From Komagataeibacter europaeus LMG 18890 (GTDB taxonomy: Bacteria > Pseudomonadota > Alphaproteobacteria > Acetobacterales > Acetobacteraceae), in NCBI RefSeq assembly GCF_000285295.1, contig NZ_CADP01000032.1, forward strand, positions 1 to 32,908: DNA of 32,908 nucleotides, read 5' to 3'. A program made the position numbers and the translations under genes. Shown in pieces: positions 12,490-19,165 of this stretch (positions are counted from its first letter, which is position 1; each line of letters opens with the position of its first letter). The notes under the pieces are model-generated. The model saw only the letters and a program-made list of their open reading frames with translations, did not search any database and was not told the origin of the DNA.

Positions 12490-14569
12490 CCGCGACCTTG
12501 TCGATCGCGCCCGCCATGCCGGGCTGAGCATGCGCTGGCGTGACGCGGCGGGGCAGATCCACCGCGTCTCCAACGAAAGCGTGCGCCGCCTGCTGGCGGT
12601 GCTGGAGGGGCATGGCGGTCCCGCCGCCGCCGGACTGCCGCCCATGGTGGTGACGATGGTGGGGCAGGTCACCCCGCTGGTCCTGCCTGAAAATACACAG
12701 GCCGCCGATTTCCGCATCGAGATGGAAACCGGGGAAGTGATGGAGGGACCGCTGCGCCGCATACGGGGACGGCCCGCGCTGCCACCATTGCGGGTATGCG
12801 GTTATCATCGCGTGTCCATCGGGCCGCATGCCACGACCCTCGCGGTGGCCCCGCAGGCCTGCCCGACTGTTGGCGCGCGGATGGATGGGGCGGGATCCGG
12901 CCGGCCATGGGGGCTGGGCGCGCAGGTCTACAGCCTGCGCACGCCCGGTGATGGGGGCATGGGCCATCTTGGCGCGGTGGCGACGCTTGCGCGCCTTGCG
13001 GCGGCGCGGGGGGCGGATGCGCTGGCCATAAGTCCGGTCCATGCCATGTTTGCCGCACGCGTGGGGCAGTACAGCCCGTATTCGCCATCCACGCGCCTGT
13101 TCCTCAATGTGCTGCTGGCGGACCCGCTGGCGGTATTCGATACCGCGACGGTGCAGGCGGCGGCACTGCGGAACGGCAAGGCCTATGTCGATACGGTCAG
13201 GATGCTGGAAGATGCGCCCCTGATCGACTGGCCACAGGCCGCCACCCGGCGTTACGAACTGCTGCGGCGGCTATATGATGAACGGATCGTGCCCAATCCC
13301 CCTGCGGAGCTTGCGCAGTTCCGGACGATACATGGCGCGGCACTGGAACAGCACGCCGTGTTTGAAACCCTACATGCCTATTTCACCACCCGGGGCGGGC
13401 GTGGCGGGGACTGGCGGCAGTGGCCACTGGCGATGCGCCGCCCCGACAGCCCGGAAGTGGCGCGTTTTGCCTACGAATTCGCCCATGACGTCAGCTTTCA
13501 TGTGTTCGTGCAGTGGCTGGCCGCCAGAAGCATGGAACAGGCATGCGGTGCCGCCCGCGCGGCGGGCATGCGCATTGGCCTGGTTGCCGACATGGCGGTG
13601 GGTGTTGACCCCACCGGCAGCGAATGCTGGGCGCGCCAGCAGGAATTCCTGGTGGGGGCGTCCATCGGCGCGCCGCCCGATGCGCTGAGCCCGGTGGGGC
13701 AGGACTGGGGGCTGACCACCTTTTCCCCCGCCGGGCTGCAGGTGGGCGGATACCGCGCCTTTATCGACACGGTGCGCGCGGGGCTGGCGCATGGGGGCGG
13801 GCTGCGCATCGACCATGTCATGGCGCTGGAACGGCTATGGATCATACCGCAGGGCGGCACGTCGGCCGAAGGGGCGTACCTGTCCTTTCCCGTGCGTGAC
13901 CTCATGCGGCTTGTCGCGCTGGAGGCGGCGCGCGCCAATGCCATCGTGATTGGCGAGGATCTGGGCACCGTCACCGCCTCCTTCCGGGCCGTGGCGCAGA
14001 AACACGGGATCATGGGGATGAACGTGCTGTTTTTCGAACGCACGCCACAGGGTGCGTTCAAGCCGCCGGGGGCATGGTCAACCAATGCGACCGCCATGAC
14101 CACCACGCATGACCTGCCCACCGTGGCGGGCTGGTGGCAGGGGACCGATATCGACTGGCGCGTGAAACTGGGGCAGATGGCGCCGGGCGTGGATGGTGTC
14201 ACCCTGAATGACGAGCGCGAGAACGACCGCACCGCGCTGTGGGCGGCGATGATGGCGCAACGTGACGCGCCAACGCCCGCTGCCCGGACCATGCGCAGGA
14301 AGTCGCCCGCGACAAAACCGCCCGCCACCGCCGATGGCGCCGCAAAGGTCGTGGATGAAGCCATAGGCTTCGTCGCCCGCGCGTCATGCCCGCTGGCGGT
14401 CATTCCGGTGGAAGACCTGCTGGGCCTGAATGAACAGCCCAACCTGCCCGGCACCACGACCGGCCACCCCAACTGGCGCAGGCGGTATCCGGGCATGACC
14501 GCGACCCTTCTGTCCGGCGTGGCGGCGCGCCGGCGTTTCGGGCGCCTGCGGGCGGGACGGTCGTCATGA
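12482..14569 (+). CDS. malQ: 4-alpha-glucanotransferase (amylomaltase), GH77
   Basis: It moves maltodextrin segments between chains, converting short oligosaccharides into longer ones that GlgP and TreY can use, and releases glucose. The product is 695 residues from ATG 12482, which overlaps the treZ stop by eight bases; GAGGTG precedes it. SPYSPSTRLFLNVLL is the GH77 acceptor-region motif. Catalytic positions are D444 (LRIDHVMALERLW), E492 (VIGEDLGTV) and D544 (TTTHDLPTVAGWW). An N-terminal helical domain (RDLVDRARHAGLSMRWRDA) is present, as in the longer bacterial MalQ. A low-complexity basic and alanine-rich stretch (around residues 595-620, with RRKSPATKPPATADGAA) looks like a lineage-specific loop. 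It ends in a four-base overlap with treY. Confidence 0.92.
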   Translation: MNNRDLVDRARHAGLSMRWRDAAGQIHRVSNESVRRLLAVLEGHGGPAAAGLPPMVVTMVGQVTPLVLPENTQAADFRIEMETGEVMEGPLRRIRGRPALPPLRVCGYHRVSIGPHATTLAVAPQACPTVGARMDGAGSGRPWGLGAQVYSLRTPGDGGMGHLGAVATLARLAAARGADALAISPVHAMFAARVGQYSPYSPSTRLFLNVLLADPLAVFDTATVQAAALRNGKAYVDTVRMLEDAPLIDWPQAATRRYELLRRLYDERIVPNPPAELAQFRTIHGAALEQHAVFETLHAYFTTRGGRGGDWRQWPLAMRRPDSPEVARFAYEFAHDVSFHVFVQWLAARSMEQACGAARAAGMRIGLVADMAVGVDPTGSECWARQQEFLVGASIGAPPDALSPVGQDWGLTTFSPAGLQVGGYRAFIDTVRAGLAHGGGLRIDHVMALERLWIIPQGGTSAEGAYLSFPVRDLMRLVALEAARANAIVIGEDLGTVTASFRAVAQKHGIMGMNVLFFERTPQGAFKPPGAWSTNATAMTTTHDLPTVAGWWQGTDIDWRVKLGQMAPGVDGVTLNDERENDRTALWAAMMAQRDAPTPAARTMRRKSPATKPPATADGAAKVVDEAIGFVARASCPLAVIPVEDLLGLNEQPNLPGTTTGHPNWRRRYPGMTATLLSGVAARRRFGRLRAGRSS

Positions 14570-17311
14570 ACAGCCGCCACGGCGCGCCATCCGTGCGGGC
14601 GACGTATCGCCTGCAGTTCCGCGGCGGCATGACGCTGGATGGCGCGACGGCCCTTGTGCCGCAGCTTGCGCGGCTGGGCATAAGCCATCTCTATGCCTCG
14701 CCACTGTTTGCCGCCACGCCCGGTTCTACGCATGGCTATGACACGATCAGTTATGACCGGATCGATCCCGCGCTGGGGGACGAGGCGGCGCTGATTCGGC
14801 TGGCCGCGCGGCTGCATGCCCATGGCATGGGACTGATCCTGGATATCGTGCCCAACCACATGGCGGCGGACGCGCGCAACCCGTGGTGGATGGATGTGCT
14901 GACATGGGGGCAGGCGTCGCTGCGCGCCAACTGGTTCGACATCGACTGGGACGTGCCGGACCCCGATCTGCACGGGCGTGTCGTGCTGCCTTTCCTTGAC
15001 CGTCCGTTTGATGAAGCGCTGGCGGCAGGCATGCTGGCGCTGCGCCATGATGGGGAAAGCGGGTTGTTTTTCATCCAGCACCATGACCATCGCTTTCCGC
15101 TCCGTCCCTGCGGGTATGCTGCCCTTCTGGCGGCGGTCGATGCGCCGGGGGAACTGCTTGCGGCCTTTACCACCGTGGCCATGCGCGCCGGACCGGGGCG
15201 GGAGGCTGATGCGGCGCTGGACAGGCTGCGGCAATGGGCGGCGACCGACGCGGGAAGGGGGGCCATGGCCCGTATCGCCACGCTTCATGATGGCGCCAGC
15301 CTGTCGGGCCGCGCACGCCTGATGGACGTGCTGGCGGGGCAGGCCTGGCAACTGGCATGGTGGCGCGATGGGGCGTCCCGCCTGAACTGGCGGCGGTTTT
15401 TTGATATTACCGGCCTTGTCAGCCTGTGCGTCGAACGTGAAGAAGTGTTCGACGCAGTGCATGATTATGTTCTGTCCCTGTACCGGCGCGGGCTGGTTGA
15501 TGGCCTGCGGGTGGATCATATCGACGGGCTGGGCGCACCCGCCATCTACTGCCAGCGCCTGCGCGCCCGGCTGGATGCCCAGACACCCGACCGGCCCGGG
15601 GACGTGCTGCCTGGCGGGGCGGTGTATGTTGAAAAAATCCTGATTGCGGGGGAAGAACTGCCCGCCGCGTGGCCGGTTGACGGCACTACCGGCTATGACT
15701 TCATGGACCAGGTATCAGCCGTGCTGCATGACCCCGACGGGGCCGGAGTGCTGGACCGGCTATGGGCCGGGTGTGGTCCCGATGCCCGCCCCCTTGGCCC
15801 GATCGTGCGGGCGGCGCGCACTTATCTGCTGGAGCATGTCTTTCGCGCGGAATTCGGCCATCTGGCCACGCTGCTGCGCCGTTGCCTGCCTGATGAGGAC
15901 GGGTCATGGGCGGGACAGGACATCCGGCCCGTGCTGGCATGCCTGCTGCTGCATTTTCGTCCTTACCGCACCTATTTTGGGGATGAGGCGGTGCAGGACC
16001 ATGCGGCGGACCGCCTGATGCTGGATGCGGCGGAAACGGCAGCATGCCAGACCATGACCGGGGAGCAGGCCATGGTGGCGGCGGACATCACGCGCCTGCT
16101 GTCGGCCCGTCCCGAACAGGCGCCGCCCCCTGTCGTGCGCCGGATGCAGCTGGCATCTGAACACCTGACCGCGCCACTGGCCGCCAAATCCCTGGAGGAT
16201 ACGGCCTTCTACCGTTACGGCCGCCTGCTGTCGCGCAACGAAGTGGGATCGGACCCTGCAGTACTGGGCCTGACGGTTGCGGCCTTCCACGCCTGTTGCC
16301 TGTCCCGTCAGGCGCGGTTTCCCCATGCGATGCTGGCGAGTGCGACCCACGACCACAAGCGCGGGGAGGATGCCCGTGCCCGCCTTGCGGTACTGAGCGC
16401 CATGCCCGAGGAATGGGAACGGCAGGTACATGACTGGTTCGCCCATAACGGGGCGGCGGGCAGGCACGGCCCCGACCGTATCGATGAACTGATGCTGTAC
16501 CAGACGCTGGTGGGGGCGTGGCCGCTGGAACCGTTTGCGAATGAGGCCGAACGGCTGCATTTCCGCAGGCGCATCCGGCAATGGCAGACCAAGGCCCTGC
16601 GTGAAGCCAAGCGCCACAGCGGCTGGATCAGTCCCGATACGGCGTATGAGGACGCCTGCGCCAGTTTTGTGGACCGCCTGCTTGATCCCATTGTCTGTGC
16701 ATCCTTCCTGCAGCAGATGGCGGGATTTGTGGACCGCATCGCCCCGGCGGGTGCGCTAAACGGCCTTGCGCAGACGCTTCTGCGCCTGACCGCACCGGGG
16801 GTGCCGGACCTGTATCAGGGGTGTGAGTTGTGGGATTTCAGCCTTGTCGATCCCGATAACCGCGCCCCGGTCAATTTTGATTACCGTGCCGGACTGCTGG
16901 AACACGCCACCAGTTTTGCGGCAGCCGCGGCTGACTGGCGCACGGGACGGGTCAAGCAGGACATGATCCGCCGCATCCTGGCGTTCCGCCAGAATTATCC
17001 CGACCTGTTCACATCTGGAACCTATGAACCGGTAGGGATCAGGGGACGGGACCGCGCCCATGCCATTGCCTTCCTGCGGCGGCATGGGGGGGATCAGCCT
17101 GCTGGTCGTTGCATCCCGCCTGCCACAGGCGTTGGGGGTGCGGGCCACGGACCTGTCGGTGGGGCGCGATGTTGACCTTGCGCTTGAACTGCCGCGCCTG
17201 CATGGGCCGTGGCACAGCCTGCTGGGGGATGTGCCACGGCAGGTGACGCATCCGTTCATGCGCGGGCAGGTGCCGCTGGCCTGTCTTGTTCACCACGCGG
17301 CGGGGGAATAA
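14566..17311 (+). pseudogene. treY: Malto-oligosyltrehalose synthase, 3' frameshifted
   Basis: TreY isomerises the reducing-end glucose of maltodextrins into an alpha,alpha-1,1 linkage, giving malto-oligosyltrehalose for TreZ. GH13_26 features are clear: YRLQFRGGMTLDGA at the start, LYASPLFAATPGSTHGYD, DIVPNHMA, D317 in GLRVDHIDGLGAP, E356 in VYVEKILIAGEELP, and D596 in SATHDHKRGED. As given, the frame ends at 17175 with an atypical tail. The expected C-terminus (ISLLVVASRLPQAL onward to the stop at 17309-17311) lies in the next frame. Removing one G from the run of seven at 17086-17092 restores a 914-residue protein. All catalytic residues precede the shift, so an 869-residue product might still fold and work. 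It may equally be a sequencing error. I list it as a pseudogene only to span both frames. Confidence 0.85.
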
Positions 17312-17396
17312 CGCGGCAGCTTGGCCATGCCGGTGAGGGCGGATCTTGCGTCCGGGCGGGAATTTTGTATCCTGTTATGTTTCAGATGCTTGTGCG

Positions 17397-18716
17397 ATGG
17401 CACGGGCACGGACAGATACAAAAGGCTGGAACTTGACCGGTTTTGACGACAACCAGAAAATCAGGCGTTCTGGCCTGAAACGCAGGGACCTGTTTGCCGG
17501 TTCCCTGGCTTTTGGCACCCTTGGCGCGCGCGGCATGTGGAATTCCGTGCCCGCCGCCGCAGCCGCCCTGCAGCGCACCGCTGTCGGTGGCACCGTGCCC
17601 CGGCTGGTGCCCATGCGCGCCCATGCCGACCAGATCACCGATATCAAGGTCTGCCTGCGCCCGTTCCGTCCCGCCGGTCCCCGGCTGGATGTCGAACGCG
17701 TGGGTGACAAGGTGGTCATCCATAATTATGGCCATGGCGGCAGTGGCTGGTCCCTGTCATGGGGATCGGCCGATATCGCGGTGGGCAAGGCGGCGTCGCT
17801 GTCGCCGCGGCGGATCGCGGTGGTGGGCTGTGGCGTGATCGGCCTGACATCGGCGCTGAGCGCGCAGCGCGCGGGCTTTGATGTTACCATCTATACCCGC
17901 GACATGCTGCCCCATACCCGTTCCGTTCGGGCCAATGGCAGCTGGACGCCGGATTCACGCATCGCGCTGACCGCCCCCGCCGGGCCGCAGTTTGCCGAGG
18001 TGTGGGAACAGATGGCCCGTTATTCATGGAAAACCTATCGCGACTATCTTGGCCTGCCGGGCAACCCGATTGATTTCCGTGACAACTACACGTTATCGGA
18101 CACGCCGTTTGAAGAAGGCCCCGAACCCGAGGGCCGCACGGGACCGGGGGATTACGCATCGACCGGAATGCCGCGCGCGACCAGCGAATTCGCGACGTAT
18201 GGCGACCGGATCAGGGACATCATTCCCGCACCCGAACTGCTGGCCAGTCAGGATAATCCCTTTCCCGTCGCATACGCGCAGCGTGCGCCGATGATGATGT
18301 TCAATTTCGGCGCGTACGGGCATCTGCTGCTGTCGGAATTCTATCAGGCGGGCGGCAAGGTCGTGATCCGTGAATTCCATACGCCAGCTGACATGAAATC
18401 CATAGCGGAACCCGTCATCATCAACTGTCCAGGCTATGCCGCGCGGGATCTGTGGGGGGACAGGACCCTTATTCCCGTGCGCGGGCAAACGACATGGCTG
18501 CCGCCCCAGCCGGATGTCACGTACGGCGTGGAATACAAGGGGGCGGCAGCCCTGTCCAAAAGTGACGGGCTGATGATCCAGGCTGTTGACCTGAATAATG
18601 TTGGCGAAATGGAAGGGGTCGGCAACAGCTTCGAGCATGCTGACCGCGCTGAATCTGAAAAGGCGATTGCGGTGTTTGAAAACCTGTTTGCACGCTTTCC
18701 CGCGGGGCGTGGCTGA
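17397..18716 (+). CDS. Exported FAD oxidoreductase, circularly permuted DAO family
   Basis: This is predicted to oxidise a D-amino acid or similar substrate outside the cytoplasmic membrane. It has 439 residues from ATG 17397; TTG 17433 with AAAAGG upstream is a good alternative and gives a shorter signal. Residues 28-35 (KRRDLFAG) and the following apolar stretch resemble a twin-arginine signal. Next comes LRPFRPAGPRLDVER (87 on) and VIHNYGHGGSG (107-117), the signature found at the C-terminus of ordinary D-amino-acid oxidases. Only after it is the FAD motif RRIAVVGCGVIGL (GxGxxG at 144-149). INCPGYAARDLWGD, VRGQ and YGVEY (376-380) follow, and the chain stops where the usual C-terminal signature should begin. 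Residues matching human DAO Tyr224, Tyr228, Arg283 and Gly313 can be placed. It overlaps the cytochrome c gene by one base. The substrate is unknown. Confidence 0.8.
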   Translation: MARARTDTKGWNLTGFDDNQKIRRSGLKRRDLFAGSLAFGTLGARGMWNSVPAAAAALQRTAVGGTVPRLVPMRAHADQITDIKVCLRPFRPAGPRLDVERVGDKVVIHNYGHGGSGWSLSWGSADIAVGKAASLSPRRIAVVGCGVIGLTSALSAQRAGFDVTIYTRDMLPHTRSVRANGSWTPDSRIALTAPAGPQFAEVWEQMARYSWKTYRDYLGLPGNPIDFRDNYTLSDTPFEEGPEPEGRTGPGDYASTGMPRATSEFATYGDRIRDIIPAPELLASQDNPFPVAYAQRAPMMMFNFGAYGHLLLSEFYQAGGKVVIREFHTPADMKSIAEPVIINCPGYAARDLWGDRTLIPVRGQTTWLPPQPDVTYGVEYKGAAALSKSDGLMIQAVDLNNVGEMEGVGNSFEHADRAESEKAIAVFENLFARFPAGRG

Positions 18717-19165
18717 TGCGCGGGCGGGGCCATGCCTGCCGCGCGGGCCTTGGGGCCGGGCTCTTGCTGGCGCTGGTGCATATGGGCGCACCGGCCAGCG
18801 CGGCGCCGGCACGGACCGTATCCTACTACACCACGGAACAGGCCCAGCGGGGGGAGGGTGCGTACCAGCAGTTCTGCGCGGTCTGCCACGGCGCCAGCCT
18901 TGCGGGGGCGTTTGACGTGCCGCCGCTGAAGGGCCGGTTCGTCACCAACTGGTCCGGCGCCACGCTGGATCGGCTGTTTGACTATATTTCCAAGGCCATG
19001 CCGCTGTTTTCCCCCGGTGCGCTGACACCGGCGCAGAATGCCGACCTGGTTGCGTTCATTCTGCGTGAAAATGGCGTGCCTGCGGGTAAGGTGGACCTGC
19101 CGGCCACGGATGCCGCGCTGAAAACCATGATGTTTCCCGTCATTTCCGCTGACAGGGTGAAATAA
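18716..19165 (+). CDS. Secreted class I cytochrome c, partner of the upstream flavoprotein
   Basis: The product is 149 residues starting in a TGATG overlap with the flavoprotein gene, so the two are translated together. An N-terminal signal (GLGAGLLLALVHMGAPASA) is followed by EQAQRGEGAYQQFCAVCHGA, with the single haem-attachment motif CAVCH at residues 54-58. The expected distal ligand is M95 in ISKAMPLFSPGALT, and LTPAQNADLVAFIL is the closing helix of a class I cytochrome c domain. The length is normal for a one-haem periplasmic cytochrome. By position and coupling I infer that it accepts electrons from the FAD protein and delivers them to the respiratory chain, as cytochrome subunits do for other periplasmic dehydrogenases of acetic acid bacteria. 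A terminator follows immediately. Confidence 0.9.
   Translation: MRGRGHACRAGLGAGLLLALVHMGAPASAAPARTVSYYTTEQAQRGEGAYQQFCAVCHGASLAGAFDVPPLKGRFVTNWSGATLDRLFDYISKAMPLFSPGALTPAQNADLVAFILRENGVPAGKVDLPATDAALKTMMFPVISADRVK

Follow-up and report, generated by a model that had tools for sequence, protein, structure and literature searches.

The flavoprotein gene and its surroundings

The window, i.e., the whole stretch of 32,908 nucleotides analysed here from Komagataeibacter europaeus LMG 18890, contains an open reading frame (ORF) for a flavoprotein related to D-amino-acid oxidase (DAO) in which the parts of the chain occur in circularly permuted order, and this ORF is followed by a gene for a c-type cytochrome whose start codon overlaps the flavoprotein stop codon by one base (18716) (Table 1). 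From its twin-arginine N-terminus the protein runs through VCLRPFRPAGPRL...VVIHNYGHGGSGWSLSWG and VVGCGVIGL to the C-terminal end ...FENLFARFPAGRG. In the 439-amino-acid form Arg88 of LRPFRP is followed by H109-G115 of HNYGHGG and then by G144-G149 of GxGxxG. The FAD GxGxxG, LRPxRP and HNYGHGG signatures are all present, with CLRP replacing GLRP in the subfamily to which the window protein belongs. The Pfam model PF01266 (DAO) matched residues 156-415 (3.4e-20; 73.3 bits versus a gathering score of 27.9). One copy of the permuted gene was recovered from the genome of the window by the genome search.

The upstream ORF (14566-17175) was assigned to the alpha-amylase family by Pfam and reads as a synthase of the trehalose type. 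It includes a run of seven G at 17086-17092; since two relatives (L002, L004) have shorter runs of five and six G and are open in another frame, the copy in the window looks frameshifted or misread.

Table 1. Positions of the genes and sequence features in the window.
Feature	Position	Strand	Remarks
Circularly permuted DAO-fold flavoprotein ORF, 439 aa from ATG	17397..18716	+	Alternative TTG start at 17346 possible
Twin-arginine signal LKRRDLFAGSLAFGTLGA	17475..17528	+	Arg29-Arg30 invariant in 14/14 aligned rows
N-terminal segment corresponding to the C-terminal part of canonical DAO (human 274 onward)	17631..17807	+	
Cys86, at the position of human DAO Gly281	17652..17654	+	Cys in 37/37 rows of the window's subfamily
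Arg88, equivalent of human DAO Arg283	17658..17660	+	
HNYGHGG, equivalent of human DAO 307-313	17721..17741	+	
Body, N-terminal in canonical DAO: Rossmann strand to the helix preceding the cut	17808..18713	+	
GxGxxG FAD motif (G144-G149)	17826..17843	+	
YGVEY, aligned to the strand preceding Tyr224/Tyr228	18522..18536	+	
Ala384, at the position of human Tyr228	18546..18548	+	
c-type cytochrome gene (PF13442)	18716..19165	+	Heme motif CAVCH at 18875-18889; apparent signal peptide by eye

Evidence for a circular permutation

A preliminary description of the locus had proposed that the C-terminal signature of DAO precedes the FAD motif by circular permutation, and this was borne out by the motif order of the ORF, by out-of-order matches to PDB sequences and by all 74 permuted sequences (rows) compared here. 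In phmmer searches against PDB, DAO and D-aspartate oxidase (DASPO) chains were matched in two or three stretches that were out of order; for 7ct4 (3.4e-13), residues 45-147 of the 456-amino-acid form aligned with chain positions 266-370 and residues 148-389 with positions 17-246. A profile of 18 canonical DAOs matched the trimmed window protein in three stretches, which in chain order corresponded to profile positions 250-308, 2-50 and 101-191. This pattern of matches is far beyond chance. A profile of the permuted family matched 16 of the 17 DAO/DASPO sequences in PDB in two stretches, the swapped order being visible in the two printed alignments, 7ct4 and 6rkf, and the canonical profile matched each of the 17 in one stretch. 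For 6rkf, profile positions 102-365 fell on chain positions 8-270 and positions 50-100 on 280-333; boundaries of this type therefore place the new ends, in canonical numbering, between residues ~270 and ~280. The chain of the window protein was confirmed to stop where the C-terminal signature would begin, its end lying just past the helix that in canonical DAO leads up to this signature.

With the canonical profile the C-terminal stretch came ahead of the N-terminal stretch in 74/74 permuted rows and a single unbroken stretch was obtained in 18/18 canonical rows; the count is a check on the sorting rather than a blind sample, since the rows had been sorted by motif order beforehand and the profile was built from those 18. 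Rotating the permuted rows raised the best single-stretch score by any amount in 49 of the 74; using a margin of 0.5 bits, 39 rows scored higher, 35 were unchanged and none scored lower. Rotation in the reverse control brought no gain in any of the 18 canonical rows. The spacing from HNYGHG to GxGxxG was 35 in 60 of 70 rows. It was 49 and 71 in L069 and L081, i.e., the linker at the joined old ends is enlarged in these two.

AlphaFold models were computed from 14 rows for the window protein (mean pLDDT 68, pTM 0.73) and for its homolog L011 (mean pLDDT 85, pTM 0.83). Using Foldseek, in which the alignment follows sequence order, the top match of the window model was 4qfd (TM 0.62 by target), an entry whose title ends at "human" and which was taken to be human DAO. 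The top match of the L011 model was human DASPO (6rkf; three chains, TM 0.67-0.69 by target, rmsd 2.6-2.7, 269-276 columns). The moved piece in the L011 model is made up of three strands and one helix, which stops five residues short of the first Rossmann strand. The piece, with its HNYGHGG segment, would be predicted to sit at the flavin.

Taxonomic distribution of the permuted family

The 74 permuted rows came from Acetobacteraceae, other Pseudomonadota, Acidobacteriota and one actinomycete. A scan of genome contigs yielded 14 loci, 13 of which had the permuted order (four from Komagataeibacter/Acetobacter, two from Acidobacteriota, seven gammaproteobacterial) and one, from Microgenomates, the canonical order. 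When whole genomes were searched with the permuted alignment, 19 of 299 Acetobacteraceae, 20 of 398 Pseudomonadota and 28 of 247 Acidobacteriota genomes had matches; the 28 Acidobacteriota matches were sorted by reading into 20 permuted, seven canonical and one fragment. The canonical profile found matches in 14 of 299 Pseudomonadota genomes, 12 of which were already in the permuted list; the other two, together with a second match in genome G456, were taken as more distant relatives and served as outgroup. Canonical members within the Pseudomonadota were found on Burkholderia glumae plasmids. Among plasmid records, the permuted order was present in Kozakia, Niveispirillum, Rhizobium, Bradyrhizobium, Mesorhizobium (split gene) and the actinomycete Nonomuraea, and the canonical order in Streptomyces, Streptantibioticus and Nocardia.

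Removal of duplicates reduced 92 permuted ORFs to 71 unique ones. L014 was left out because it is cut by a contig end, L076 and L077 because their TNYGHGG escaped the search pattern although they are permuted, L147 because it is the same Kozakia gene as L027, and L151 because the gene is split. In this last record, from a Mesorhizobium onobrychidis plasmid (L151:4926-5989), the annotation divides the permuted gene into two overlapping CDSs, with the break just past GxGxxG. A Terriglobia MAG carries a partial second copy (L006:5889-6362, profile positions 262-371) ~0.8 to 1 kb past the full permuted gene, and an Acidobacteriota genome (G739; L065, L090) has four near-full-length matches to the permuted profile, of which two were read, both permuted. 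Where annotations of permuted members were encountered they read only "FAD-dependent oxidoreductase". Among the titles and opening lines of abstracts that searches of the open-licence PMC literature brought up, no description of a permuted DAO family was found.

Phylogeny and origin of the swapped order

Once the permuted rows had been rotated into register, one branch (100/100) separated 70 of them from 11 canonical rows, and the permuted rows likewise formed one branch in the core tree of 309 columns filled in both groups (100/100) and in the tree of the N-part alone (99, SH-aLRT only). In the rooted tree the 74 permuted rows formed a clade (98/92) that was sister to the 18 canonical DAO/DASPO rows including the human enzymes (98/86), so that the family of the window protein lies outside the canonical clade; the rooting is less sure than the split itself, since the four other DAO-superfamily rows used for it are on very long branches. 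Homologs sharing the motif order had been suggested as a group to be checked for common descent, and they form one clade in both the rotated and the rooted trees.

That the chain is permuted and that the permuted members constitute a single clade is well supported, and we have little doubt about either. A repeated, independent origin of the permutation would agree with the tree of the C-part alone (57 columns), which had no single permuted branch but two changes; the whole-protein, core and N-part trees, each with one branch, and the spacing of 35 shared by most rows make it very improbable. It is still harder to conceive that the swapped order is an artefact, either a misassembly, the possibility raised in the preliminary description, or the fusion of two neighboring DAO genes. 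Elsewhere than in the window, the Mesorhizobium copy annotated in two pieces and the partial second copy in the Terriglobia MAG are what such events might leave behind, but the same order is found in records of K. diospyri, K. swingsii, A. oeni, Kozakia, Niveispirillum, Rhizobium, Bradyrhizobium, Nonomuraea and many more genomes, and the permuted rows are one clade. Because independent assemblies share the swapped order, this reading is already refuted. The proposal of a new structural variant of DAO is supported.

Active site residues and subfamilies

According to an excerpt of PMC6279847, human DAO binds the carboxylate of its substrate through Arg283 and Tyr228 and the amino group through Gly313. 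Equivalents of Arg283, His307 and Gly313 were present in 74/74 permuted rows, in agreement with the earlier placement of Arg283 and Gly313 in the window protein. Its YGVEY, however, which had been equated with Tyr224/Tyr228, aligned with the preceding strand, and the active site that had seemed complete has Ala384 in place of Tyr228 and a deletion at Tyr224.

The permuted clade was divided into three groups, for which the names are our own: type I (32 rows), type II (37 rows, including the window protein) and type III (five rows, rhizobia and Nonomuraea among them). Position 228 is Tyr in 16 of 18 canonical rows, in 22 type I rows (His in the other 10) and in 5/5 type III rows. Type II has Tyr there in 6/37 rows, and none of these six is in the 19-row clade with a cytochrome gene that includes the window protein. 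The Tyr224 position is a gap in 37/37 type II rows, and the LGG motif (LGGT) is lost in this subfamily. Type II is further characterized by Cys for Gly281 (37/37), Trp for Leu316 (37/37), Tyr for Val184 (36/37) and Arg for Thr44 (36/37). Position 281 is Gly in 18/18 canonical, 32/32 type I and 4/5 type III rows (54/55 of the others). With the loss of both the Tyr228 equivalent and the LGG motif, the subfamily of the window protein may act on something other than a D-amino acid; our guess is an amino or imino acid.

Cysteine 86 and the possibility of covalent FAD

Position 315 of the chain of monomeric sarcosine oxidase (MSOX) is the Cys that opens CMYTKTLDEHF...AAGFSGHGF, and it is the FAD anchor of that enzyme. 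This Cys is 26 residues ahead of the AAG glycine, and Cys86 is likewise 26 residues ahead of the NYG glycine that aligns with human Gly310. The same MSOX probe matched FsqB (6gg2) around Cys414. An excerpt of PMC6222107 describes an 8-alpha-methyl link of FAD to Cys414 in FsqB, mentions covalent FAD for MSOX too, and states that a Lys is needed for flavinylation in this group (FsqB K448, MSOX K348). The position paired with this Lys, human 317, is Ser in 37/37 type II rows, which speaks against covalent FAD in them.

The C-terminal piece of MSOX was compared with three DAO C-part profiles (18 canonical; canonical and type I; type II), and its best domains scored 0.5, 2.6 and 4.5 bits, respectively, in weak alignments of the glycine-rich half only, which fix the spacing count and leave the Cys outside the aligned part. 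Among the reported shuffles, the best whole-sequence scores against the same profiles were 11.5, 7.6 and 9.7 bits and the next best 5.2, 6.2 and 2.8 bits. Since the type II Cys at human Gly281 matches the FAD-linking Cys of sarcosine oxidase by spacing, covalent FAD is possible in type II; from sequence we regard it as a lead, with somewhat less than an even chance of being correct.

Export signal

The export proposed for the window protein is supported by a twin-arginine pattern, with arginines followed by a hydrophobic stretch, in the window protein and altogether in 68/70 rows, the exceptions being L055 and L056; the test was a simple pattern applied to stop-to-stop ORFs, and L063, L066 and L067 look doubtful. 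Inspection by eye revealed no twin-arginine signal in the rhizobial and Nonomuraea type III rows; the type III row L057 has one. By one pattern, 27 of the 70 rows have a lipobox-like Cys.

Genomic context

In 19/19 rows of the clade of the window protein (100/100), the permuted gene is immediately followed on its own strand by an ORF that contains CxxCH, and 18 of these 19 ORFs fall into one BLAST cluster, which no row from outside the clade joins. No homologous cytochrome was present outside the 19-row clade among the clustered neighbors of the 70 rows (flanks ~1.5 to 4 kb). Other CxxCH ORFs near L009, L011 and L012 are not of the same family, and for one near L063 a methyltransferase was named.

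In Kozakia baliensis, on plasmid pKB14400_3, the downstream ORF carries the annotation cytochrome c. The genes there run from LysR through a serine hydrolase, an FAD oxidoreductase, a second serine hydrolase and an alpha/beta hydrolase to the permuted protein and then cytochrome c; genes for a CocE hydrolase and a TonB receptor lie on the opposite strand. In this region (L147:760-8661) another DAO-superfamily protein, two serine hydrolases and an S9-type hydrolase precede the permuted protein and the cytochrome c. Other recurrent neighbors were S9- and S12-type hydrolases, TonB receptors and amidohydrolases, in only a few genomes each; 39 hand-picked neighbors were scanned with Pfam. The hydrolase and TonB neighbors hint at peptide use and prove nothing.

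Comparison with known flavoenzymes

The permuted family shares with DAO and DASPO (human DAO 2du8/5zj9, human DASPO 6rkf, Rasamsonia DAO 7ct4) the FAD GxGxxG, NCxG, LRPxRP and HNYGHGG motifs, the fold as modeled, and the equivalents of Arg283, His307 and Gly313. It differs from them in the swapped order of its parts and in the twin-arginine signal, in the subfamily of the window protein also in Cys for Gly281, Trp for Leu316 and the loss of Tyr228 and LGGT, and in one clade in having a cytochrome c partner. With MSOX and FsqB, of the same superfamily, it has in common a Cys 26 residues ahead of the glycine aligned with human Gly310, but those proteins are of canonical order and their flavinylation Lys is Ser in the window's subfamily. 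The DadA-type D-amino-acid dehydrogenase of bacteria is a member of the DAO superfamily that has the canonical order, acts on the cytoplasmic side and passes electrons to the respiratory chain. The window protein would resemble it in superfamily and, as proposed here, in being a dehydrogenase, and is unlike it in its swapped order; the NCBIfam DadA-type match was far under the cut-off (32.8 versus 383 bits).

Putative function and origin

We consider it rather likely, reading from the sequence comparisons, that the window protein is a Tat-exported, once-permuted DAO-fold amino- or imino-acid dehydrogenase that feeds cytochrome c. In an old bacterial family the DAO/DASPO fold would have undergone a single circular permutation that brought the last strands and helix (LRPxRP...HNYGHGG...WG) ahead of the Rossmann strand; a short linker would now connect the former termini, and the present ones would lie between human residues ~270 and ~280. 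The protein would fold with FAD in the cytoplasm and then be exported by Tat, an alpha-amino or imino acid would be oxidised in the periplasm with its carboxylate held by the Arg283 equivalent, and the electrons would be passed to the co-encoded cytochrome c.

It is likely, as one part of this reading, that the window protein is exported and works as a flavin dehydrogenase for cytochrome c, and because it is paired with cytochrome c in its own branch the electrons probably go to respiration rather than to peroxide. If it were instead a permuted oxidase like DAO, O2 would take the electrons and the cytochrome c would belong to another step, in keeping with the oxidases that make up its fold and its best PDB relatives and with the confinement of the homologous cytochrome to the 19-row clade among the clustered neighbors. 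We regard this as unlikely in view of the one-base gene overlap in the window and the pair kept throughout that clade; moreover, acetic acid bacteria typically oxidise substrates in the periplasm by means of dehydrogenases and cytochromes. Quite improbable is a non-catalytic or degenerate DAO-fold protein, for although the window protein lacks Tyr228, the lid Tyr224 and the LGG motif, the equivalents of Arg283, His307 and Gly313 and the subfamily-specific Cys281 and Trp316 are kept in 37/37 rows, and the clade of the window protein has retained the cytochrome gene alongside.

The dehydrogenase reading can be extended, tentatively and with some doubt, to a scenario in which a deep permutation founded a separate family and the exported branch of the window protein gained an FAD-tethering Cys, lost the substrate Tyr of DAO and became a periplasmic dehydrogenase with a dedicated cytochrome c. 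DAO is a flavoenzyme known from textbooks, its structures have been solved and it attracts interest in drug research; all 17 DAO/DASPO sequences in PDB were matched by the canonical profile in one stretch. A natural permutation of apparently single origin in at least three phyla would show that this fold can be cut inside the substrate domain, and the family would offer a natural experiment on flavoprotein folding and Tat export.

Electron transfer to a cytochrome does not generalise to the whole family, since the cytochrome neighbor is confined to one clade. On plasmids of Rhizobium and Bradyrhizobium, typed conjugative (L148, L149), the permuted protein lies between an FAD-binding oxidoreductase, of the berberine-bridge type in L148 according to Pfam, and a thiamine-diphosphate enzyme, and this gene row is an apparent pathway.
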